Shown here in pieces: positions 24,555-39,858 of a stretch of DNA of 64,000 nucleotides. A model generated the notes under the pieces. That model searched no databases, was not told where the DNA came from, and saw nothing but the letters and a program-made list of their open reading frames with translations. Numbering within the stretch: the first letter of the stretch is position 1; each line of letters starts with the position of its first letter. The translations under genes and the position numbers were made by a program. Source of the DNA: an uncultured Desulfofustis sp. (lineage in GTDB: Bacteria > Desulfobacterota > Desulfobulbia > Desulfobulbales > Desulfocapsaceae); the NCBI GenBank assembly GCA_905479735.1, contig CAJQNS010000011.1:1-64000 (forward strand), read 5' to 3'.

Positions 24555-25853
24555 TCAATTAGCCTTCTTACGCAGATAGGTTGGAGTCTCCAGGTAATCC
24601 TCGTTAATCCGTTCACTGGGTTTGGGCTCATCCTTTTCCAGGGAACGGTTGCCGCGGGTCGGCCCGAAATTGTCAAAAGCGTCGAAATTTGACCCGGGTA
24701 GTACGGTGGCCTTGGGGGCCCTGTTGGCCAGAGCAGGCTTGTAGGGCTGCTGTCTATCAGCTTCGGGCTTCAATGGATGCTGTGTGCGTACCGATTGTAC
24801 CGATTCAACCGGCTTGGGAGGTTTCACCGGAGCCTCGTACTGCTGTTTGCGAGGCAGATCGCCGACCTGGGCGATGGTTCTCTCCCTGGTGTCGACGTCG
24901 CCAACACCGGTGGCTATTACCGTTACCTGAAGCTCGTCGCCCAGGCTGTCGTCGTAGAGTGCGCCGATGACCACCTTGGCATCCTCATCGACCTTGTCCT
25001 GAATCAGCGCCGAGGCCTCCATGAACTCGGCCATGGTGAAGCTCTCTTCGGTGGCGGAAATATTGATCAGCAGACCGCGGGCACCATCGATGCCGACATC
25101 TTCCAGAAGCTGGTTATCGATGGCCCGTTTGGCCGCCTCAACCGCCCTGTTTTCACCGACCGCAGAGGCAGATCCCATAATGGCCGGGCCGACTTCTTTC
25201 ATCACCGTGCGCAGATCGGCAAAATCGGCATTGATCAGGCCGGGTACATTGATCAGATCGGTAATCCCTTTGACGGCCTGGAGCAGAACCGTATCAGCCA
25301 GGGAGAGCATGTCGGAGAGTTTGGAAGTCTTCTGCATCAGGCTCAACAGCCGGTCGTTGGGTACCGTGATGATCGTATCGGCATATTTATGCAGTTCCTG
25401 CCAGCCGGCTTCAGCGTTTCGCTGCCGCTGCTTGCCTTCAAAATTGAAAGGCTTGGTCACCACCGCTACAGTCAGAGCGCCCAATTCCTTGCTGATCTTG
25501 GCAACCACCGGCGCAGCACCTGTGCCGGTGCCGCCGCCCAGCCCGGCAGTGATGAAGACCATGTCGCCGCCAAGCAGACAGTCTTTGACCTCTTCCATTG
25601 ACTCGTGGGCAGACTGGGCCCCGGTCTCCGGGTCGGCCCCCGCACCGAGTCCTTTGGTAATGGACGGCCCCAACTGGATACAGATATCGGCTTTGGATTG
25701 ATCCAGGGCCTGTTTGTCGGTGTTGGCAACGATGAACTCCACTCCCTGAAGCTTATTATCCACCATGGTGTTGATAGCGTTTCCGCCACCGCCACCAAGG
25801 CCGATAACTTTGACTACCGCAACGCTCTCTGTCTCTGCCATTCTAAACGGCAT
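24555..25853 (-). CDS. ftsZ: cell division protein FtsZ
   Basis: A 432-residue tubulin-like GTPase. The GTP-binding loop GGGGNAINTM comes early, and the tubulin signature GLGGGTGTGAAPVV follows. The C-terminal linker ends in the conserved peptide DYLETPTYLRKK, which binds FtsA and other partners. It forms the cytokinetic ring. It is last in the dcw series, 115 bp after ftsA. Confidence 0.97.
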   Translation of the reverse strand: MPFRMAETESVAVVKVIGLGGGGGNAINTMVDNKLQGVEFIVANTDKQALDQSKADICIQLGPSITKGLGAGADPETGAQSAHESMEEVKDCLLGGDMVFITAGLGGGTGTGAAPVVAKISKELGALTVAVVTKPFNFEGKQRQRNAEAGWQELHKYADTIITVPNDRLLSLMQKTSKLSDMLSLADTVLLQAVKGITDLINVPGLINADFADLRTVMKEVGPAIMGSASAVGENRAVEAAKRAIDNQLLEDVGIDGARGLLINISATEESFTMAEFMEASALIQDKVDEDAKVVIGALYDDSLGDELQVTVIATGVGDVDTRERTIAQVGDLPRKQQYEAPVKPPKPVESVQSVRTQHPLKPEADRQQPYKPALANRAPKATVLPGSNFDAFDNFGPTRGNRSLEKDEPKPSERINEDYLETPTYLRKKAN

Positions 25854-25968: not shown

Positions 25969-27249
25969 CTACATGATTTTTTTGAACAGCCCTCTCATTT
26001 TGTCCATCACTCCGGTGTCTTGATCGGTGGCGCTCATCTGATGGTCTCTTCCGTAGAGCACCAGACCGACCCCTGTGGTGCAGCGCGGGGTGTAAACATC
26101 ATCAACCCTGCCCCCGATTCCGCTGGGATATCCAACCCTTACCGGCATATCAAAAATCTGCTCGGCAAGATCAACGAGGTTTACCAGCAGCGAGGTGCCA
26201 CCGGTCAGAACGATTCCGGCGTTTATTCTGTTCTTCTGACCGGAGACGACCAGCTCCCGGTTGACCATTTCAAGAATCTCCACCATTCGTGCCTCGATGA
26301 TGTCAACCAGCACTTTCTGAGTCACCCGCCTCGGCTCCCGGTCACCCACCGAGGGAACGTCGACTACGTGATTGGACTTGATCACCGCTGACAGGGCGCT
26401 GCCGTAGTCCTCCTTGAGGCGTTCCGCCTCAGCCAGCGGAGTTCGCAAGCCAACGGACAGATCGTTTGTCAGGTTGTGCCCCCCCAAACCCAGTTCGCAG
26501 GTGTGCCTGATGGTCCCCTCATAGAACACGGCGATATCTGTAGTGCCGCCGCCTATGTCCACCAGGACCACACCGAGATCCATCTCGTCCTGGGTGAGCA
26601 CCGCCTTGGCGGAGGCAATTGACTCCAGCACCATATCGGCCACCTCGAGACCAGCCTTGTTGCAGCAGGTTACCAGGTTGTGCACGGCCCCGATATCGGC
26701 GGTGACGATGTGGACGTTGGTCACCAGCCTGACCCCGGTCATGCCGAGCGGATTCTGGATGCCGGTATGGTCATCGACCATATATTCCTGTGGCAATACG
26801 TGGATGACCCGCTGATTCTCAGAAATTTTCACGGTCTGAGCCGCGGTGATCACCTCCTGGACGTCGGCCTGCTTGATCTCCCTGTTGTTGATAGCCAGGA
26901 TACCTGGGCTGTTGAATCCCTTAATGTGGTTCCCGGCAATGCCGACGTAGACCGACTCAAGGTCGCAGCCGGCGATATCCTCGGCGACCTTCACCGATTT
27001 TCGGATCGAGGCCACCGTGCTCTCGATATTGACCACCACCCCTTTGCGCATCCCCAGAGAAGGTGAGGTCCCGACCCCGATAATATCGACACCATCCTGG
27101 AAGACTTCGCCGACCACGCAGCAGATTTTTGTAGTGCCGATATCGAGCCCGACCACAAGGTTGCCCCGAACATCACGTTTCTGCTCTCCGATGGGCTCGA
27201 CACCCATCTCCAACTCCTGATCTTTATTCTTGTCCATATTCAAACTCAC
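25969..27249 (-). CDS. ftsA: cell division protein FtsA
   Basis: A 426-residue actin-like ATPase. It has GLDIGTTKICCVVGE, then VDIGGGTTDIAVF and VLTGGTSLL for nucleotide binding. The end MDKMRGLFKKIM is the amphipathic membrane-targeting helix. It tethers FtsZ to the membrane. Its start overlaps ftsQ by 4 bp. The N-terminus has an extra charged stretch of about 25 residues before the fold. Confidence 0.96.
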   Translation of the reverse strand: MSLNMDKNKDQELEMGVEPIGEQKRDVRGNLVVGLDIGTTKICCVVGEVFQDGVDIIGVGTSPSLGMRKGVVVNIESTVASIRKSVKVAEDIAGCDLESVYVGIAGNHIKGFNSPGILAINNREIKQADVQEVITAAQTVKISENQRVIHVLPQEYMVDDHTGIQNPLGMTGVRLVTNVHIVTADIGAVHNLVTCCNKAGLEVADMVLESIASAKAVLTQDEMDLGVVLVDIGGGTTDIAVFYEGTIRHTCELGLGGHNLTNDLSVGLRTPLAEAERLKEDYGSALSAVIKSNHVVDVPSVGDREPRRVTQKVLVDIIEARMVEILEMVNRELVVSGQKNRINAGIVLTGGTSLLVNLVDLAEQIFDMPVRVGYPSGIGGRVDDVYTPRCTTGVGLVLYGRDHQMSATDQDTGVMDKMRGLFKKIM

Positions 27250-28238
27250 CCTGACTCGCCGTAACCGACAATCACCTTGTCCTTTAAGTAGTCCATCTTG
27301 ATATAGGCAACGCGGCCTATATCCATACCAGTTCTACGCGGCTTATAGAGCATTTCCAGCACCTTTCTGAGCCGCACGTATTTCCTTCTGATGTCGCCTT
27401 CACCAAAAAATATCGGGAATGGATGTTCCACCAAATAGAGGATCAGTCCCTCGTCAGCATCCACATGCAGCTCGGAAATCGACTGCACCGGCAGATTCGG
27501 ATTATTGGATTCTGCCAGCTTGAGCAGATCGAGCGGGGCGTCAAGTTCTGAAGGCACCGTATCGAGATCCTCCGCCTGTTCGAGACCGGTGATCACCGGA
27601 TAGTCCAAATCCATACCATAGGTCGTTTTGACAAAGGTGTTCCCCTTACGATCCAGATAATAGAGCGGCGCCGCCTCATCCTCACCGACAGCGATGAGGG
27701 CATAGGGCTTAAATTCACGAACCTGCAGAATCAAGGTGCCGGGCCAGTTCCGCGCAACGGTGACCTGATCCACCCAAAGGCTTTCTTCCCTGACGTTTTC
27801 AGTTATCTGTCTTTCATCGACTGCAAAAAGACTGGCGCTCACTTTCACCCCTGAGGCTGCACGAATCTCATCTGCAGTCGAATTGGCGCAGCCCTCAACC
27901 CTGATCTGAGTAATTCTGAAATAATCGAGGTCTTCGAGCAGCACGGAAAAAAGACTGAAGCCGCCGCTTTTGAAGAACAGTGCTGCGGCACTGACCAGAC
28001 AGAAAATCAGCAACAGTTTTCTGCGGCCGCTCGGCTGGGGTGCGCTTTGATAAGATACCGGTCTACTGTCTTTACGTTTACTCCAATAATTATTGAGTTT
28101 CTTCAACAGGGATTTGCGCTGCTTCTTGTCCCGCTCATCGAACCGGAACGCACCCCTGCCGGTCTCAACTCCGCCACCTTCAACGCTGTAGCGATTTTTC
28201 TTTTTAGTCCCGAGTATCTTCTGCAGCCAATTTTTCAT
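27246..28238 (-). CDS. ftsQ: cell division protein FtsQ (POTRA)
   Basis: A 330-residue bitopic membrane protein. It has a long basic cytoplasmic part (about 90 residues), one transmembrane helix (LLLIFCLVSAAALFF), then the POTRA domain (FRITQIRVEGCANSTADEI), and the FtsQ beta domain with WPGTLILQVREFKPYAL. It scaffolds the FtsL/FtsB complex. Placed between murB and ftsA as usual. Confidence 0.93.
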   Translation of the reverse strand: MKNWLQKILGTKKKNRYSVEGGGVETGRGAFRFDERDKKQRKSLLKKLNNYWSKRKDSRPVSYQSAPQPSGRRKLLLIFCLVSAAALFFKSGGFSLFSVLLEDLDYFRITQIRVEGCANSTADEIRAASGVKVSASLFAVDERQITENVREESLWVDQVTVARNWPGTLILQVREFKPYALIAVGEDEAAPLYYLDRKGNTFVKTTYGMDLDYPVITGLEQAEDLDTVPSELDAPLDLLKLAESNNPNLPVQSISELHVDADEGLILYLVEHPFPIFFGEGDIRRKYVRLRKVLEMLYKPRRTGMDIGRVAYIKMDYLKDKVIVGYGESG

Positions 28239-30568: not shown

Positions 30569-31678
30569 TTACTTCCTTGACAGATCCAGGCAGATACCCA
30601 CTATCCGCTCGGCGGCATCACTGATGCCCAGTTTCTTCATCGACTCGGACATGGTTTCGAGCCGGGTCTGATCATTGATAATTCTAAGAATCTCCTCGGC
30701 CAGCATTTGCGGAGTAAGATCCTGCTGGGCAAACATCACTGCAGCCCCGCTCTCCACATACCAAGCTCCATTTTTTTCCTGGTGGTTGTCTGCAGCATAG
30801 GGATAGGGAATCAACACCGCCGGCACACCAACCACACCGATCTCCGCCAGAGTGGTCGCTCCGGCTCGAGAGACGATAAGATCTGCCTGCTGGTAGAGCT
30901 CGGCCATATCGGTGAAAAAGGCCGAAACCAGGTGATCGATGCCCATCTCTTCATAGGCCTGCTTAACCATCTGTTCATCATCGCGGCCGGTCTGGTGAAT
31001 TACTCGGACTGAGGAAAAGGCCTCCATACCGCCTCTCAAGGCCTCGACGATCATTTCATTGACCGCGTGAGCTCCCTGGCTGCCGCCGAGAATAAGCAGT
31101 GTCCGTCGGCCATTGCCCGAACCTCTGCGGCGGCCGGCTTCAATGATTTTCTTGCGGACCGGATTTCCAGTCAGCACCGATTTTCCAGCGGGAAAAAATT
31201 TCTCGCTCTGGGGCAGCGACAGGCAGACCCTGTCGACCAGCCTTCCCAGCTTGCGGTTGGCTAGTCCGGGAACCGAGTTCTGTTCGTGTATCATCGTTGG
31301 TCGACGCAGCAGCCAGGCTGCCGCCACTACCGGCCCGGTAACGTAGCCGCCCACGCCCAGAACGACATCGGGATTAAATTTCAAGATATGGTAGCATGAC
31401 TCCATAACAGAGAGGGGCAGCACGACAAGGGCCTTGAGCAATTCCCAGACATTCTTTCCCTTGAGCCCATAAGAATGAATGGCCGTCACCGAAAAACCAG
31501 AGCGGGCAAGTGAATCGCGGTCCAGTCTCCGCCTGGTCCCGACGAACAGCACGCTGCTCTCCGGCACTGCCTCCCGCACCTGGTCGGCCGTCGCTACGGC
31601 CGGAAACAGATGACCGCCGGTACCGCCGCCGGTGAGTAGCAATCGCAATGTTGATTTATTGCTGCCGGTGTCGCTCAC
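30569..31678 (-). CDS. murG: UDP-N-acetylglucosamine transferase, lipid II synthesis
   Basis: A 369-residue GT28 glycosyltransferase. LTGGGTGGHLFPAVA is the first glycine loop, LGVGGYVTGP the second, and ILGGSQGAHAVNE the UDP-GlcNAc site. It converts lipid I to lipid II at the inner membrane face. It overlaps murD by 4 bp; the usual ftsW gene between them is absent. Confidence 0.97.
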   Translation of the reverse strand: MSDTGSNKSTLRLLLTGGGTGGHLFPAVATADQVREAVPESSVLFVGTRRRLDRDSLARSGFSVTAIHSYGLKGKNVWELLKALVVLPLSVMESCYHILKFNPDVVLGVGGYVTGPVVAAAWLLRRPTMIHEQNSVPGLANRKLGRLVDRVCLSLPQSEKFFPAGKSVLTGNPVRKKIIEAGRRRGSGNGRRTLLILGGSQGAHAVNEMIVEALRGGMEAFSSVRVIHQTGRDDEQMVKQAYEEMGIDHLVSAFFTDMAELYQQADLIVSRAGATTLAEIGVVGVPAVLIPYPYAADNHQEKNGAWYVESGAAVMFAQQDLTPQMLAEEILRIINDQTRLETMSESMKKLGISDAAERIVGICLDLSRK

Positions 31679-33054
31679 TGGTGCATCCCCGTGGGTTTTT
31701 TCTGGTGAAGCCGGTGCACCGCCTCAATGAAGCGGGCTCCTCTTTCCTTGTAATTGTCAAACATGTCGAAGCTGGCGCAGGCCGGGGAAAAAAGCACTGT
31801 GTCTCCCGGCTCGCAGGCTGCCGATGCCCGTAGAACCGCCTCATCAAGCGTGGCCGGATAATCGACCTCAACAAGATCGCCAAGCACCTCACCGATGGCT
31901 CGGGAGGCCTCACCGATAAGGATCAACTTCTTGACATGGGTGGCGACACTGTCTCTCAATAGAGTATAATCATCTCCCTTGTCCCTTCCGCCGGCGATGA
32001 GGACGATGGTGCTCTCCCGGCTGCCGATCTGGAGGATGGCGTTTTTCACGGCACCGGTGTTGGTCGCCTTCGAATCATTGATGTAAGTAATGTTATTGTA
32101 GCGGGCAACCCTCTGCAACCGATGTTCCCCGGATTCGAACTCGATGAGTGCCTGCTGCACCGCATCCTTCTCGAAGCCGAAATCTTTGGTTGCCAATAGT
32201 GCTGCAGCGCTGTTGAGCAGACCAGAGAGATTCTCCAGTCTCGAGCCGGCCAGCTCATAGGTGACGTCCGGCATGACCACCCGGCTGCCACGTATGGATG
32301 CCTCAAAATGATCTTCATGCCCAAACCTCGCCCATTCAACCCCGGTCATGGTTTCTGAGAATCGACGGCACAGAGGATCATCGCCGTTGATCACCGAAAA
32401 CGTCTTGGCCGATCCACCCTGAAACATATTCATTTTCGCCGCCGCATAACCTTCCACTGTTTCATGCCGATCGAGGTGATCCGGAGTGATATTGAGCAGG
32501 ATTCCTACCTCCGGCATGAAATCACCGCACAACTCCAGCTGAAAACTTGAAAGCTCGAGGACTACCGCCTCGTATTCTTCGTCCGAGAGTAGATACTCGC
32601 CGATCGGTGTACCGATATTTCCACCGACAAAGACATTTTTCCCCGCCGCTTTGAATATCGATCCGATCAGTTCGGTGACCGTTGTTTTGCCGTTGGTACC
32701 GGTCACCCCGATCACCGGAGCTTTGAATTTATCGGCGGCCAGGGCGAGTTCTCCAAGAATCGTGGCTCCTGACTGCCTGACCTTTTCCAAAACCGAGTGA
32801 CGGTAATTAACTCCCGGGCTGGCAACCACAATGTCAGCCCGGGCCAGAAATCCCGTACTGTGGCCGCCTCCTTCGTACTCGGCTACGCACTGGTCGAGCA
32901 ACTCCTGCTCCTTGGAGCTCAGATCAGAATAATTTCTGATGTCACTAACCAATACCCTGATCCCGCTCTCGCACAGGTAGCGGACTAGCGCCTGGCTGGC
33001 CCGGCCGAAGCCGACGACCGCCATTGTGTCCCCTATCGTTGCCTGCGGTACCAT
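31675..33054 (-). CDS. murD: UDP-N-acetylmuramoylalanine--D-glutamate ligase
   Basis: About 459 residues. MAVVGFGRASQALV starts the UDP-binding domain, GVTGTNGKTTVTELI is the ATP loop, and NDSKATNTGAV is the C-terminal signature. It adds D-Glu in the cytoplasm. ATG 33054 is preferred: the longer TTG 33087 frame would translate the mraY-tail remnant. This ATG overlaps the TGA that ends that remnant (TGATG), which suggests the original mraY-murD junction. Another possible start is ATG 33024. Confidence 0.95.
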   Translation of the reverse strand: MVPQATIGDTMAVVGFGRASQALVRYLCESGIRVLVSDIRNYSDLSSKEQELLDQCVAEYEGGGHSTGFLARADIVVASPGVNYRHSVLEKVRQSGATILGELALAADKFKAPVIGVTGTNGKTTVTELIGSIFKAAGKNVFVGGNIGTPIGEYLLSDEEYEAVVLELSSFQLELCGDFMPEVGILLNITPDHLDRHETVEGYAAAKMNMFQGGSAKTFSVINGDDPLCRRFSETMTGVEWARFGHEDHFEASIRGSRVVMPDVTYELAGSRLENLSGLLNSAAALLATKDFGFEKDAVQQALIEFESGEHRLQRVARYNNITYINDSKATNTGAVKNAILQIGSRESTIVLIAGGRDKGDDYTLLRDSVATHVKKLILIGEASRAIGEVLGDLVEVDYPATLDEAVLRASAACEPGDTVLFSPACASFDMFDNYKERGARFIEAVHRLHQKKPTGMHQ

Positions 33055-33140
33055 CAGTGTAGATTTACCCTTTGCGATGACCAGCAATGAATTATCAGGA
33101 TGATCAACAATCTCACCACGACCTAGATTTCATGCCAGCC
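33051..33140 (-). pseudogene. diverged second copy of the mraY 3' end
   Basis: Hand alignment to the true mraY 3' end (33423-33515) gives about 70 identical bases in 94 columns, with exact runs of 13 (TTTCATGCCAGCC) and 10 (ACCACGACCT). In the mraY frame it reads GWHEI, stop, VVVRLLIILII..., against [17 protein letters not shown]... in the gene. The lysine codon has become TAG and a small deletion shifts the frame later. Both copies end in CTGATGG. It overlaps the end of the 56-residue ORF and the murD start. Confidence 0.8.
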
Positions 33141-33425: not shown

Positions 33426-34505
33426 TCAGCGCAGTTTTAATGTGGCGATGGCCAGGAACCCAAGAATTATCGAGACGATCCAAAATCGGACCACGACCTT
33501 GGTTTCATGCCAGCCTTTTTTCTCAAAGTGGTGATGAAATGGAGCCATTAGAAATATCCGCTTGCCCTTGGTCATCTTGAAATAACCAACCTGCATAATC
33601 ACCGACAGCGCCTCCATGACGAAAATACCGCCGACGATTGCCAGAAGAATTTCCTGCTTGATAATCACCGCTATCGTACCCAAAGCGGCCCCCAGCGACA
33701 GCGAACCCACATCGCCCATGAAAACCTGGGCAGGATAGGCGTTGTACCAGAGGAAACCAAGACAGCCGCCGACCATGGCTCCGCAGAAGACTGCCAGTTC
33801 ACCACTACCGGCCACGTAGTGCACCTGCAGATAGTTCGAGATGACGATATTTCCGGCAATGTAGGAAAAAACCAGGTAGACCGCCGCAGAAACGATGGTA
33901 GGTCCGGTGGCTAGGCCGTCCAGCCCGTCAGTGAGATTTACAGCATTGGAAGCGCCAACTATGATGATGATCGCAAAAATGACATAGAACCAGCCCAGAT
34001 CTGGCCGGATATCCTTCAGAAAGGGTATAGCCAGATGCCCATCAAAGCCGGGGGCGTTGAAAATGAAAATACCTACCGCAGTGGCGCCGATAAGTTGGAG
34101 CAGAAGTTTGCCCCTGGCGCTGAGCCCGGCGCTCGTTTTTTTACTGATCTTCTTAAAGTCATCCAGGGCACCGATAAAGCCGAAAAAGCAAGTGACCAGC
34201 ATGGTCAGCCAGACATAACTGTTGTCCAGTCTGGCCCATAAAAATGATGAACCGATGATGGCTGCAAGGATAAGCAGCCCGCCCATGGTCGGCACCCCCT
34301 GTTTGTAGATATGGGTTTCTGGTCCATCATCTCGGATTACCTGACCGATCTGCGCTCTCTTCATCGACCTGATAAACCAGCTACCAAGGACGATAACGAT
34401 CAGAAAGGCGGTCACCGCTGCCAGGATGGAGCGAAAGGTGATGTACCTGAAAACGTTGAAGCCGATAAAAATCGTGTGTAATGGGTAGAGCAGATGGTAG
34501 AGCAT
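33426..34505 (-). CDS. mraY: phospho-MurNAc-pentapeptide transferase
   Basis: A 359-residue polytopic membrane enzyme with about ten helices. Catalytic acidic residues lie in GALDDFKK and [22 protein letters not shown] is the conserved histidine loop. It links phospho-MurNAc-pentapeptide to undecaprenyl phosphate to make lipid I. The 3' end has a diverged second copy about 370 bp downstream. It follows the murE-murF gene by 17 bp. Confidence 0.97.
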
Positions 34506-34522: not shown

Positions 34523-37500
34523 TTAACATCGTTCCATAATCTGGTCGACAACGGTGTCAAGCGCCAACCCGCGTGAAGCTTTGATCAGCAGCCAATCATC
34601 GGCCTGCAGGTGGGCAGCTCTGAAGAGTTCATCTATCCAGTCAATTATTTCGTTTTTGTCGCTAAACACCCTGATCCGGTCCGGATCCATTCCCGAAGCC
34701 TGAGCACCCTGTCTGATCTGATCGGCGAACTCTCCCACCAGGGCCAGAAAGGACAGATCCGATTGAGCTGCCACATTACCGATCGAACGGTGCAGGTCGC
34801 CACTGGCCTGGCCCAGTTCGAGCATATCTCCCAATACTGCCATTCTGCTGTGGGCCGACATTCCGCCGAGGGTCCGGAGGCCCGAAGCCATCGAGGCTGG
34901 GTTGGCATTGTAGCTGTCATTGAGAATTTTAAGTCCTAACGGTGAGGTAAGCCGCTCCATGCGTTTCGAGGAGGAGCGAAACTGCTCCAGGCCGGCAACG
35001 ATAGTGGCGAAATCGATTCCGGCAGCCTGGGAAATTGCTGCTGCAGCACAGCAGTTGCTGACGTTATGCAGTCCTGGGACACGAATGGTGAGATCTCTGC
35101 TCAATGCACCGATATGCAGAGTGAAACTCAGGTTACCGTTGTCATCGGTGGTAACTTTTTCTGCCCAAACCTCGGCTCCCCTGGCCACTCCCTGTTCAGA
35201 AACGGCAAAACCAACCTTTCTACTGCTGTACTTGTCGCTCAGTCTGACGATATGTTTGTCATCGAAATTAACCACATGGATACTTTCAGGCCTGCTCTGG
35301 TCAAACAGTTCGCCTTTGGCTGCCGCAACCCCTTCGATGGAACCGAGCCCCTCGAGATGGGCCTGGTGTACGTTGGTGATGCAGCAGATATCGGGGTCGC
35401 CGATCCTGGCCAGCCTGGCGATTTCACCAGGGCTGTTCATGCCCATCTCCAGAATCAGAGCGCGGTGATGGACAGAAACAGGCAGCAGTGAGAGCGGCAG
35501 ACCTATCAGATTATTTAAGTTGCCTGCCGTCTTCAGGACACGATCCGCTGGTCTATCCGGCCGATTCGGCCAGCGGTAGTTGAAGATGGCGCCGGTCATG
35601 TCCTTAACTGTGGTCTTCCCACAGCTTCCGGTCAGTCCGACGACCACCGGACGGCTGATCTCACGTACCCGGTCCAGTCGGTAACGGGCAAGATTGCCCA
35701 GGGCAGTCAACGTATCTGCCACCTGAACGCAGCTGACATCCCGATTATTCTGTTGAACATCGGAGACGACCAGACAGCGGGCTCCGTTTTCAACCGCGTT
35801 ATCCAGAAATTTGTGGCCGTCGAACAATTCGCCCTGCAGAGCCACGAAGATGTCATTATCGACGATTGTTCTGGTGTCGGTGGAAATGTCGCGAAAATGG
35901 CTGATTGCAGCTGTCCGGGCCACCTCCCCCCCCGTTGCTGCAGCCACGGTTTCCAGATCCCAGGCCAGACTGCTTTGCTGAGCGCAAAGCTTATCGTCAA
36001 AAAATCGGGTTTCCCGGCCGACAAGCTGGTAATCTTCATGCCCCTTGCCAGCGATGAGCACGATGTCGTCCTCTCCGCTGCGGGTCAGGGCCGCATGTAT
36101 TGCCGCGCCTCGCCCGCCAATCTCGAGGTAGCCCTGTTCCCCGGGTTCACTTCTGTTAAGCCACTCCGTAGAGCGCTGTTTCAGACCGGTTGGTGTTATT
36201 CCTTCGATAACCGCCTTGCGGATAGCGGCCGGCTCCTCTTCTCGCGGGTTGTCATCAGTCACGATGACTATATCGGCCAACCTGGCAGCTATTGCACCCA
36301 TCAGAGGCCGTTTCGATTCATCCCGGTTGCCGCCGCAGCCGAATACGCAGATCAGTCGCTCATGCTCCAGTGATTTCAGGGCGCCAAGGACTTTTTCCAG
36401 GGCGTCAGGCGTATGTGCATAATCGACGATTACGGTGGGCTGGCCGCCCGGTTTGTCCGCCAGCAGCAGGGGTTCGATTCGACCGGGAGCGCCGGCTGCG
36501 CGGCCGAGAAATTCTGCCCAACGGTCGGCCTCATACCCCAGTGCCGACAGGGCTGAAAAGGCAGCCAAAAGATTGCTGATATTAAACCTGCCGATCAAGG
36601 AGGACTCTATCTGGTAGTGCTGTCCTTTGTTATCGGCGATCTCACACCTGACACCGGCCAGTGACGCCGTATGGTCGACAAGCCTGACATCACAGTTCTC
36701 CGCCTCGCCGCAGACAACGGTAATCAACGGCAGTGACCGGCACAGCTCGGCCAGTTCCGCAGACCGATTCTCTCCATCTACTCTGCTACTTTGCTCAACC
36801 ACCACAACCGTTCCGCCGGAACGCATATGATGAGTGAACAATCTGCGTTTGGCGGCAAAATAGTCGCTCATCGTCTGGTGGTAGTCGAGGTGATCCTGAC
36901 TGAGATTGGTGAAGACGCCCAGGTCGAATTCCGTCGAGCCGAGGCGATGCTGCTGCAGGGCATGTGAAGACGCTTCCATTATCACATGGCTGACACCGCT
37001 GTCGGCCATCTTTCTCAACACGTTTTGCAGGGTCAGCGGATCGGGAGTGGTCAACGGAGCCGGTTCACGTATGCTTCTCCCATTGCCAAGGTCATAGCGA
37101 TACTCGACCGTACCGATCACCCCGGTCTGAACCCCAAGCTGCCGCAAGGTTTGTTCAATGAGATAGCAGACGGTAGTCTTGCCGTTGGTACCGGTGATGC
37201 CGACCATCGTCATTTCCGAGGCAGGATGTCTATAAAAGGCCGAGGCCAGTGGTGCCAAGGCTGCCCGGGAGTCTACCACCTCGATGACGGCTATCTCCAG
37301 GGTGGACAGATCCTCCTGCTCGATAGCCCCCCTCTCAACCACAACTGCCAAGGCTCCGCGCTGCACTGCTTCAGCGATGGATCGATGGCCGTCATGTTTG
37401 TCGCCCTTGATCGCTACGAACAAGGAAGACGGACCGGCGGCCCTGCTGTCGTCGCAAAGTCCTGCTATGATGACAGAGTCATCGATTAAACGAGTCGAGA

Positions 37501-37588
37501 CCCAGCCGGAAAGACTGACCAAAAGCTCAGCAAGGGGTATCGAATAATTGCGCTCGGTCCCTCGACTTATGTGGGCAATTGAATTCAA
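34523..37588 (-). CDS. murE-murF: MurE-MurF fusion (two peptidoglycan ligases in one chain)
   Basis: A 1021-residue protein. Residues about 1-533 are MurE: ATP loop GITGTNGKTT (130-139) and DNPR (446-449), the signature for meso-diaminopimelate. Residues about 540-1021 are MurF: GLTGSCGKTTVKDM (651-664) and ILNDSYNANPASM. One polypeptide should add diaminopimelate and then D-Ala-D-Ala to the UDP-MurNAc-peptide. The MurE C-terminal GKGHEDYQ block is complete, and MurF starts almost at once after FFDDK, so the link is short. No frameshift is present. It follows ftsI by 5 bp. Confidence 0.95.
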   Translation of the reverse strand: MNSIAHISRGTERNYSIPLAELLVSLSGWVSTRLIDDSVIIAGLCDDSRAAGPSSLFVAIKGDKHDGHRSIAEAVQRGALAVVVERGAIEQEDLSTLEIAVIEVVDSRAALAPLASAFYRHPASEMTMVGITGTNGKTTVCYLIEQTLRQLGVQTGVIGTVEYRYDLGNGRSIREPAPLTTPDPLTLQNVLRKMADSGVSHVIMEASSHALQQHRLGSTEFDLGVFTNLSQDHLDYHQTMSDYFAAKRRLFTHHMRSGGTVVVVEQSSRVDGENRSAELAELCRSLPLITVVCGEAENCDVRLVDHTASLAGVRCEIADNKGQHYQIESSLIGRFNISNLLAAFSALSALGYEADRWAEFLGRAAGAPGRIEPLLLADKPGGQPTVIVDYAHTPDALEKVLGALKSLEHERLICVFGCGGNRDESKRPLMGAIAARLADIVIVTDDNPREEEPAAIRKAVIEGITPTGLKQRSTEWLNRSEPGEQGYLEIGGRGAAIHAALTRSGEDDIVLIAGKGHEDYQLVGRETRFFDDKLCAQQSSLAWDLETVAAATGGEVARTAAISHFRDISTDTRTIVDNDIFVALQGELFDGHKFLDNAVENGARCLVVSDVQQNNRDVSCVQVADTLTALGNLARYRLDRVREISRPVVVGLTGSCGKTTVKDMTGAIFNYRWPNRPDRPADRVLKTAGNLNNLIGLPLSLLPVSVHHRALILEMGMNSPGEIARLARIGDPDICCITNVHQAHLEGLGSIEGVAAAKGELFDQSRPESIHVVNFDDKHIVRLSDKYSSRKVGFAVSEQGVARGAEVWAEKVTTDDNGNLSFTLHIGALSRDLTIRVPGLHNVSNCCAAAAISQAAGIDFATIVAGLEQFRSSSKRMERLTSPLGLKILNDSYNANPASMASGLRTLGGMSAHSRMAVLGDMLELGQASGDLHRSIGNVAAQSDLSFLALVGEFADQIRQGAQASGMDPDRIRVFSDKNEIIDWIDELFRAAHLQADDWLLIKASRGLALDTVVDQIMERC

Positions 37589-37593
37589 CGTCT

Positions 37594-39480
37594 CTATTCC
37601 GGCTCGGTAATCTGTGGTCGCCTGTAGCCAGGGTCGACTGCATCCCTCTCCAGTATGAGAGTTACCCTGGCACCCGGCTTCAATTTAGTGCCGGCCGGAG
37701 GGTGTTGGGAAACCACCCGTCCAGTGCCCTGCACTTCTATTTCGACATTGCTGCCCTGCAACAAGCGTAAAGACTTTCTGAGGCTCATTCCGGTAAATGA
37801 CACAATTTCTATCTCGATTCCGTCATCTTCGGGGCCGTCTTCAAGCGACTGCCCCTGCACCGGAGACAGGCGATAATTCATCTCCTCCTTTTCTCTGGGG
37901 CTCATCATATCGGACAGGTTTTTCATGACCTGCTGCAGAGCTGCGATCGATCCGATAATCTTCGCCGCCTCCCCTGCCGGAGAACGATCCATTTGTTGAG
38001 CCACCTGGTAGCCCGGCCCGGTAGAGGTAACCAGCAGCACAAGATCCGGTTTATCCTGGGGGATTAGTACCAGACCTAGATAGTGATGAAACAACTGCTC
38101 ATTAACTGACTCTATCACCGAACGGCTTTCTCCCTGCACCATGAGAGAGCCCAGAGGACCCCGCTCACCCAACCCTGCGGCCAGCCTTTCGGCCTCACCC
38201 GCTATTCCATCTGAAAGAATCCCTGAAGCAGGCTCCTTTTCCAGGTCATCGAGCAGAAATTCCTGCTGATTCTTGCGCAGCACGAACCTTTTAGCGCCGT
38301 GGGGCGTGATGTTTAGACCACCATTGAGTGCCCTGGTCACCGCAGTGAGGATCTCCAGCGGCGTCTGAGTTTCAGGAACGGTCTCAAAATTTACATTTTT
38401 CTGCGGCCCGCGTTTAAACGGAACTGCGCTGGTTTCAGGAGGCGGTACTGTAATAAAATCAAACTCCAGATTGCCGTCGGCCCCGAGTCTGTTCCAGAGC
38501 TGCAGTTGAACTCCCAGTTTCCACTGTTCTGCACCAATACTCCAGGGCAGCGGCCCAGAAATGTCACTATCCTGACTCTCCAGGAGCGAGAGATCTCTGA
38601 GAAAAATTTTGAACACATCCGGAACGGTGATCTTCTCGTTGAACAAATCACTAAAGTTTGTTTCCGAGTAGCTGTGAAACTTGTTCGGATCGAACGAGGG
38701 TGTCTGCGTATAGCCGACCAGCCCTCCGGTTGACGCCTCCATCACCAATGCACCATAACTGTTGCCGGGATTGGCGGCCGACAGCCGTTTCAAATAGTCA
38801 TCTAGGATTCGCTGTATTTTAGAGTCAATGGTAAGGATGAGATGCCTGCCGTCCACACCGGGTCGGGTGTCACCCATCTTGAGAAGCTCGTTGGTGTCAT
38901 CTTTTTTCAGCCGGAACCTGGCTTCCAGCTTGTTGAGATACTGTTCGATACCGAAAAGTCCGGTATCTCCCTCGACAAAACCAATGAGATGAGCTGCCGA
39001 TTCACGCTGTGGATAATAGCGGATATACTCTCTGTGCAGATGAACGCCCTGGAAATCGAGCTCTTTGATCTCGTCTTCCTGATCCTGGCTGATGTCCTTG
39101 GCTAACCAAACCCTCAGACGTCCTTTCCCAATTCGATCGTATAGATCGCTCTCGGAAGTTTCAAGTATGGCCGATATTGGGCCTATCACTTGATTGACGT
39201 CCTCGATTTCTCGGATATTGGCATACACGGACACCCGTTCGTAGGAGATGGCAAATTCTTTATAGTTTCTGTCGTATATCGTTCCCCTGGTTATCTCTTG
39301 GTCGGTTGCTGTCTGTTTCTTCCCAATATTTAATGCTTTACCGGCCTGCTCCCAGAGAAGCAGTGTCCGCTCATCTTCTAACCAGGCCCAGATTGCAGCT
39401 ACGCCAACTAAAAGAACAATCAGAAAAACCAGCCGCCGTCGTCCGACGCCTTGAGTACGCAGACGAGACCGCTTGCCCAT
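37594..39480 (-). CDS. ftsI: FtsI/PBP3 homologue lacking transpeptidase catalytic motifs, with C-terminal PASTA
   Basis: A 628-residue protein in the ftsI position. Residues about 17-35 are the membrane anchor. Residues 60-190 are the PBP dimerisation domain (EITRGTIYDRN, GIEQYL). The transpeptidase fold begins normally (LTIDSKIQ, TPSFDPNKF), but the SxxK site reads P-D288-V-F-K291, with Asp in place of the acylated Ser. No SxN is found in the strongly shortened middle. TPLEILTAVTRALNGG matches the usual TPLQ block. The KTG site reads ESR (451-453). A single PASTA domain ends the protein (about 554-611). The frame is continuous, so it is kept as a protein: a likely pseudoenzyme scaffold. Confidence 0.88.
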   Translation of the reverse strand: MGKRSRLRTQGVGRRRLVFLIVLLVGVAAIWAWLEDERTLLLWEQAGKALNIGKKQTATDQEITRGTIYDRNYKEFAISYERVSVYANIREIEDVNQVIGPISAILETSESDLYDRIGKGRLRVWLAKDISQDQEDEIKELDFQGVHLHREYIRYYPQRESAAHLIGFVEGDTGLFGIEQYLNKLEARFRLKKDDTNELLKMGDTRPGVDGRHLILTIDSKIQRILDDYLKRLSAANPGNSYGALVMEASTGGLVGYTQTPSFDPNKFHSYSETNFSDLFNEKITVPDVFKIFLRDLSLLESQDSDISGPLPWSIGAEQWKLGVQLQLWNRLGADGNLEFDFITVPPPETSAVPFKRGPQKNVNFETVPETQTPLEILTAVTRALNGGLNITPHGAKRFVLRKNQQEFLLDDLEKEPASGILSDGIAGEAERLAAGLGERGPLGSLMVQGESRSVIESVNEQLFHHYLGLVLIPQDKPDLVLLVTSTGPGYQVAQQMDRSPAGEAAKIIGSIAALQQVMKNLSDMMSPREKEEMNYRLSPVQGQSLEDGPEDDGIEIEIVSFTGMSLRKSLRLLQGSNVEIEVQGTGRVVSQHPPAGTKLKPGARVTLILERDAVDPGYRRPQITEPE

Positions 39481-39489
39481 GTCTCCACA

Positions 39490-39858
39490 TTACCTGAGCT
39501 TGAATACCTGTTTTTCCTCGGGGACAAAAAGCGCCAGCTCTTCACCTGCCCGCTTGAGTACCTGCTTTTCAGACATCATATTTGCGCGCTGGGCCAGCAA
39601 TATTATCTGATCTTCCCTGAGTTGATGCCGAGCCGCCTCGATTGCTTGAATTTTCTGTTCTCCGCGGGTGATCGAAAAATTGAGCCAGAGATTGATGCAA
39701 AAAACGACAAAGACCACTGCCAGCGCAATCTTTGACGCGGCCAGCCACAGAGCGCTACCACCCGGCAAACCAAATGCTTTTTTCCTGCGGAACTGTTGTC
39801 TGAACTTCGTGTCGAGCGTTGACTGTGACACGATTCTGATCGAGTTCTGGTAATTCAT
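39490..39858 (-). CDS. ftsL: FtsL-like divisome protein
   Basis: A 122-residue bitopic protein. It has a basic cytoplasmic N-terminus, one transmembrane helix (IALAVVFVVFCINLWLNF), then a heptad-rich periplasmic coiled coil (ITRGEQKIQAIEAARHQLRED) and a short tail. Position between rsmH and ftsI and architecture both fit FtsL, which with FtsB links FtsQ to FtsW/FtsI. Sequence conservation in this family is low. Confidence 0.82.
   Translation of the reverse strand: MNYQNSIRIVSQSTLDTKFRQQFRRKKAFGLPGGSALWLAASKIALAVVFVVFCINLWLNFSITRGEQKIQAIEAARHQLREDQIILLAQRANMMSEKQVLKRAGEELALFVPEEKQVFKLR

Follow-up and report, generated by a model that had tools for sequence, protein, structure and literature searches.

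In nearly all bacteria, the wall that divides the cell is thought to be made by the FtsW-FtsI pair. One report calls both proteins universally essential for making the septal wall (PMC10693644). How, then, does a cell build its septum when its dcw cluster holds no ftsW, and an ftsI whose product carries none of the catalytic motifs? This question is raised by a stretch of 64,000 nucleotides (hereafter "the window") from an uncultured Desulfofustis sp., part of a draft assembly that is 90.65% complete. It is followed here from the locus itself to the genome, the order, and the phylum, with particular attention paid to what the remaining division proteins may do.

The dcw Cluster and the Empty ftsW Place

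The dcw cluster of the window comprises mraZ, rsmH, an FtsL-like ORF, ftsI, a murE-murF fusion, mraY, murD, murG, murC, murB, ftsQ, ftsA, and ftsZ. On the minus strand, a 122-aa FtsL/DivIC-like small membrane protein (39490..39858), recognized by its position directly upstream of ftsI and its one hydrophobic segment (Pfam DivIC only at E 0.037), is accompanied by a 628-aa non-catalytic FtsI (37594..39480; Pfam, motif alignment, and fold match), the 1021-aa murE-murF fusion (34523..37588; two Mur ligase modules), mraY (33426..34505; PF00953), murD (31675..33087; PF08245/PF02875/PF21799), murG (30569..31678; PF04101/PF03033), ftsQ (27246..28238; POTRA_1 and FtsQ_DivIB_C), ftsA (25969..27249; PF14450, PF02491), and ftsZ (24555..25853; PF00091, PF12327). 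The ftsI gene is kept near those of FtsL, FtsQ, FtsA, and FtsZ. The murE-murF fusion was seen in families f1, f4, f12, and some f6, and not in f3, f5, or f13-f15.

The junction of murD and murG is the usual place of ftsW. In the window the two genes overlap there by 4 bp, the GTGA at 31675-31678 (minus strand) being common to the TGA stop of murD and the GTG start of murG. A 4-bp overlap is ordinary in an operon, and the unusual point at this junction is the absent ftsW rather than the overlap. A PF01098 search found no SEDS gene between murD and murG, nor anywhere else in the window, and the sole match of the assembly lies on another contig. The first-pass annotation, which had reported the overlap, the ftsW missing from its dcw place, and the lack of any SEDS protein in the window, is thus confirmed on these points. 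In most families of the order, the former ftsW place is filled by a 60-75 aa zinc-ribbon-like ORF (CCxCxR...W...SHGYCPxC), found between murD and murG in loci L082-L124 (f3, f5, f9, f12-f15) and also in L253; the family to which the window belongs has no such ORF at the murD-murG junction.

An FtsI Homologue Without Catalytic Motifs

The protein encoded in the dcw slot between rsmH-ftsL and murE stands where FtsI is expected. It consists of a transmembrane (TM) segment (about residues 12-35), a pedestal (about 62-210), a vestigial transpeptidase fold (about 211-520), and a PASTA domain (about 556-612). Pfam recognizes PBP_dimer (PF03717, 8.5e-13) and PASTA (4.2e-10), with Transpeptidase reached only at E 0.017, and in the motif alignment SxxK, SxN, and KTG are all three absent; the motif-less FtsI of the earlier annotation therefore stands. 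A model built from 24 aligned sequences gave a pLDDT of 76 and a pTM of 0.67, with a helix at 12-35 (the model from the single sequence, pLDDT 34, was not usable). It matches FtsI/PBP3 structures in Foldseek at E 1e-23 to 1e-27, and the FtsI chain of the Pseudomonas aeruginosa FtsWIQBL complex with a VIA Z of 31.0 over 412 residues (rmsd 6.9), so that the transpeptidase fold is still recognizable. Judged from its sequence, the dcw protein is an FtsI homologue without catalytic motifs, not an FtsI enzyme. Could it still act as a transpeptidase by way of an unusual active site? The fold is recognizable and the transpeptidase domain is under mild constraint, but there is no SxxK serine, no SxN, and no KTG, and the residues at those columns vary between families, which makes this idea hardly credible.

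Nor is the gene likely to be a decaying, functionless pseudogene. The loss of all catalytic motifs and the divergence of the transpeptidase domain would suit such a fate; against it, the ORF is full-length in nearly all loci of 15 families, and dN/dS is well below 1 in every domain, with the PASTA domain and the pedestal best conserved, leaving the pseudogene a very improbable explanation. Within a single genus of the window's own family, and likewise within f28, dN/dS is about 0.04-0.24 for the pedestal, 0.16-0.32 for the transpeptidase domain, and 0.05-0.18 for PASTA. Because of these ratios, the dead FtsI is to be seen as a working gene whose full-length protein is under purifying selection. 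The pattern of conservation is reversed between dead and active FtsI, the transpeptidase domain being lowest in the former and highest in the latter: mean pairwise identity is 38% (pedestal), 26% (transpeptidase), and 46% (PASTA) in the dead FtsI of the order, vs. 36, 47, and 32%, respectively, in the active FtsI of ftsW-bearing families. Since the vestigial transpeptidase domain is still constrained, it keeps some role.

The Lone SEDS Protein is RodA

The only PF01098 match in the assembly (G000:C72:18317-19363) lies directly after an intact PBP2 gene and 3.5 kb after mreB, in an mreB...pbp2-rodA cluster. It passes the NCBIfam RodA equivalog (411.9 bits, cut-off 336.7) and falls below that for FtsW (296.6 bits, cut-off 337.5), while the identity of the neighboring PBP2 also passes NCBIfam. 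Among 65 SEDS proteins placed in a tree, those of the order group as a single clade (100/99) and fall outside the one that holds the dcw-located FtsW (100/100). The lone protein thus neither lies between murD and murG nor groups with dcw FtsW, and by tree, cut-off, and neighborhood it is RodA. The assembly has three Transpeptidase (PF00905) matches, PBP2 and two class A PBPs; PBP2 is the only intact class B PBP of the genome, and neither an FtsW nor a second septal class B PBP was found in the assembly. An intact ftsW/ftsI pair elsewhere in the genome, the finding that the first-pass annotation had named as reducing the case to a relocation, was searched for without success, and its proposal that the FtsW-FtsI module has been remodelled or replaced is supported.

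These observations extend well beyond one draft. Among 146 genomes of the order, covering 15 families and 55 genera, 141 have a SEDS match, nearly all of them exactly one, including 99-100% complete and single-contig genomes. This one-SEDS state rules out an assembly gap as the cause of the ftsW absence. Nearly all genomes of the order encode exactly two PBP_dimer proteins. No SEDS ORF is present in any fetched dcw locus of the order, and SxxK, SxN, and KTG are absent from every FtsI examined across it. The incompleteness of the window's own assembly would leave room for an intact ftsW and ftsI located elsewhere, with the dcw FtsI as a leftover paralogue; in complete or near-complete genomes of the order, however, a single SEDS protein (RodA) and two PBP_dimer proteins (the dcw FtsI and PBP2) are all that is encoded, so that relocation is refuted at the level of the order and extremely unlikely for this genome. 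ftsW has been lost from the dcw cluster and from the genomes of the order, and RodA-PBP2 is the sole remaining SEDS-class B PBP pair. The named record Desulfobulbus sp. HyVt-437 (L253) also lacks ftsW, and its motif-less FtsI is 42-48% identical to that of f12. Given this match, and the published absence of ftsW in Electrothrix and Desulfobulbus (PMC7873302), the order sampled is probably Desulfobulbales.

Coupling and Recurrence Across the Phylum

Two SEDS genes are the rule in the other families of the phylum, as against one in this order, and several further families lack ftsW. In f28, f66, f72, f75, and f76, FtsI is motif-less; in f39 it is reduced to the TM segment and pedestal, and in f40 to the TM segment, the start of the pedestal, and the vestigial transpeptidase. 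In f35 and f65 the FtsI slot encodes a TM protein of 248-329 aa with a PASTA-like C-terminal domain; in f59 the slot lies beyond the stretch fetched. The named record Deltaproteobacteria bacterium UBA5329 (L270) goes with f65. The motifs are absent in every ftsW-less family with a readable FtsI slot, and all three are present in the FtsI of 39/39 ftsW-bearing families aligned. The dcw cluster was read in about 40 other families (the loci of f87, f92, f95, and f100 fall outside this survey); wherever the region spans both genes, ftsW is found between murD and murG or next to murG, together with an intact FtsI. The first-pass annotation had proposed to map the two changes on related genomes, and in the loci read the losses of ftsW and of the FtsI motifs coincide without exception. 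In an MraY-based control, most named loci among the matches listed (mostly from other phyla) have ftsW where the region is covered, and the FtsI motifs are present in nearly all where FtsI was matched; at least two named records are without ftsW.

How often did this happen? In trees of five concatenated dcw proteins, the ftsW-less families fall in three places: the window's own order with f39, f75, f40, f76, f59, f66, and f72; f28; and f35 with f65. Bootstrapping gives a range of three changes, a count open to distortion by transfer or long branches in these dcw-gene trees, and a single clade of ftsW-less families is rejected (AU p = 0.007). f28 groups with the ftsW-bearing f21 in the dcw trees and with the window's own clade in the RodA tree. 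Because the dcw trees are built from the cluster's own genes and RodA places f28 differently, the ftsW-less state is best said to have arisen about three times, and at least two.

In f35 and f65 the ftsW slot holds a protein of 261-264 aa with seven to nine predicted membrane segments (L134:4588-5379; L135:4610-5392; L140:4695-5483; L141:4654-5436; L270:12404-13189). It shows no significant resemblance to FtsW (HMM E 0.01-5, hhalign probability 2%), the one slot protein tested had no Pfam match, and it may be either a reduced FtsW or an unrelated replacement. The reverse case also occurs: in f29 (L133), where FtsI is intact, and in f95 (G360), the only SEDS protein found is FtsW, and RodA seems to have been lost.

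Which Enzyme Builds the Septum?

Since FtsW is missing and FtsI is non-catalytic, some other wall-building enzyme must serve division in these cells. We consider it likely that the septal synthase FtsW-FtsI no longer exists as an enzyme, that FtsI is a scaffold, and that another enzyme, most likely a class A PBP, possibly with RodA-PBP2, makes the septum. Once FtsW was lost, the FtsI transpeptidase would have been left without its cognate polymerase, and its active site would have decayed. The protein would then serve as a non-catalytic divisome scaffold, with a TM segment and pedestal that connect to FtsQLB and a PASTA domain that touches the wall or a synthase. A class A PBP, the type of enzyme used by Clostridioides difficile, would polymerize and cross-link septal peptidoglycan, perhaps with help from RodA-PBP2. 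The loss would have been repeated about three times to differing depth, leaving FtsI at full length in this order and only a TM segment and PASTA in f35/f65. In E. coli the activating signal passes from FtsQLB to the FtsI pedestal and on to FtsW (PMC8078798). In f35/f65 the pedestal, too, has been lost, so that signalling through it cannot be the function shared by all these lineages.

The two class A PBPs encoded in the genome measure 615 and 1133 aa, and each carries GT51 together with SxxK, SxN, and KTG. Apart from one 90%-complete draft, all ftsW-less genomes searched contain class A PBPs; an expansion was looked for, and their numbers in ftsW-less genomes are not above those of other genomes. 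The candidates for the septal synthase are reached by exclusion, and a class A PBP would be slightly favored over RodA as the septal polymerase.

A parallel is offered by C. difficile, in which a class A PBP drives vegetative division without a canonical FtsW/FtsI pair (PMC10693644). Like this bacterium, the order has no division-specific SEDS-class B pair, has a class A PBP available, and is left with one such pair (RodA-PBP2), just as the single essential pair of C. difficile serves elongation. Unlike the order, C. difficile keeps catalytic SpoVE/SpoVD in its dcw cluster for sporulation (PMC10693644), whereas the lineages described here are Gram-negative, have no SEDS gene in dcw, and carry there a class B PBP reduced to a motif-less pseudoenzyme.

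The main competitor would have RodA do double duty, in the elongasome with PBP2 and at the septum, where it would act with PBP2 or be activated through the dead-FtsI pedestal; PBP2 or a class A PBP would then do the cross-linking. RodA-PBP2 is indeed the only SEDS-class B pair, and the dead-FtsI pedestal is as conserved as the active one. Pedestal-ECL4 activation is common to E. coli FtsWI and RodA-PBP2 (PMC8078798). On the other hand, mreB is a neighbor of pbp2-rodA in all ftsW-less genomes checked but f39, an arrangement that suits a dedicated elongasome, and in f35/f65 RodA is equally alone although FtsI has no recognizable pedestal. Double duty for RodA is a possibility that we hold to be somewhat doubtful. 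As for the wider picture, we lean toward a type of divisome, arisen about three times, in which FtsW has been deleted and the FtsZ ring receives its synthase, a class A PBP or RodA, by way of a non-catalytic FtsI scaffold (in places only TM and PASTA).

Relation to Known Systems and Significance

A survey of cable bacteria and Desulfobulbus listed ftsW, zipA, and ftsN as absent in four Desulfobulbaceae (two Electrothrix, two Desulfobulbus), and mre genes, pbp2, and rodA as one cluster; in the sections available, ftsI is listed as present, septal synthesis is assumed to proceed via FtsI activity, and the absence of ftsW takes up one line of a gene table, with no mention there of FtsI active-site loss, order-wide extent, or recurrence (PMC7873302). 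The literature searched contained no report of FtsI active-site loss in these bacteria, its strict coupling to ftsW loss, its recurrence, or its order-wide spread. The absence of ftsW in four Desulfobulbaceae was thus already known; the coupled catalytic death of FtsI, its recurrence, and its extent, as read from sequence, are apparently new.

Some bacteria need FtsI but can do without its transpeptidase activity (PMC8078798), and there, as here, the structural role of the septal class B PBP is separable from catalysis; those bacteria, however, retain FtsW and the FtsI active site, both of which evolution has removed here. In Planctopirus limnophila, ftsI and ftsW are dispensable (PMC6952346), and division likewise proceeds without need of either, but that organism buds and has no FtsZ, whereas FtsZ, FtsA, and FtsQ are present here. 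The idea of a planctomycete FtsI without a transpeptidase domain was not borne out by the papers found.

An order and several further families thus divide by FtsZ without an FtsW-FtsI synthase, a state reached more than once and in step with the death of FtsI. They offer a natural experiment on the roles of FtsI besides cross-linking, and on which polymerases can build a septum; the scaffold reading, if true, would be a natural case in which the structural role of FtsI is parted from its enzymatic one. In cable bacteria and related organisms, it predicts, FtsI-specific penicillins should find no FtsI target, and septation should rely on class A PBPs or RodA.

The longer class A PBP deserves a separate remark. 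The transpeptidase region of this 1133-aa protein (G000:C101:70164; L245:1527-4925) is unusually long and divergent, but all three motifs are present. The protein was considered as a special septal synthase and set aside, since some ftsW-less genomes show no such protein; many genomes of the order have ORFs of 1100-1134 aa with similarly weak transpeptidase matches.
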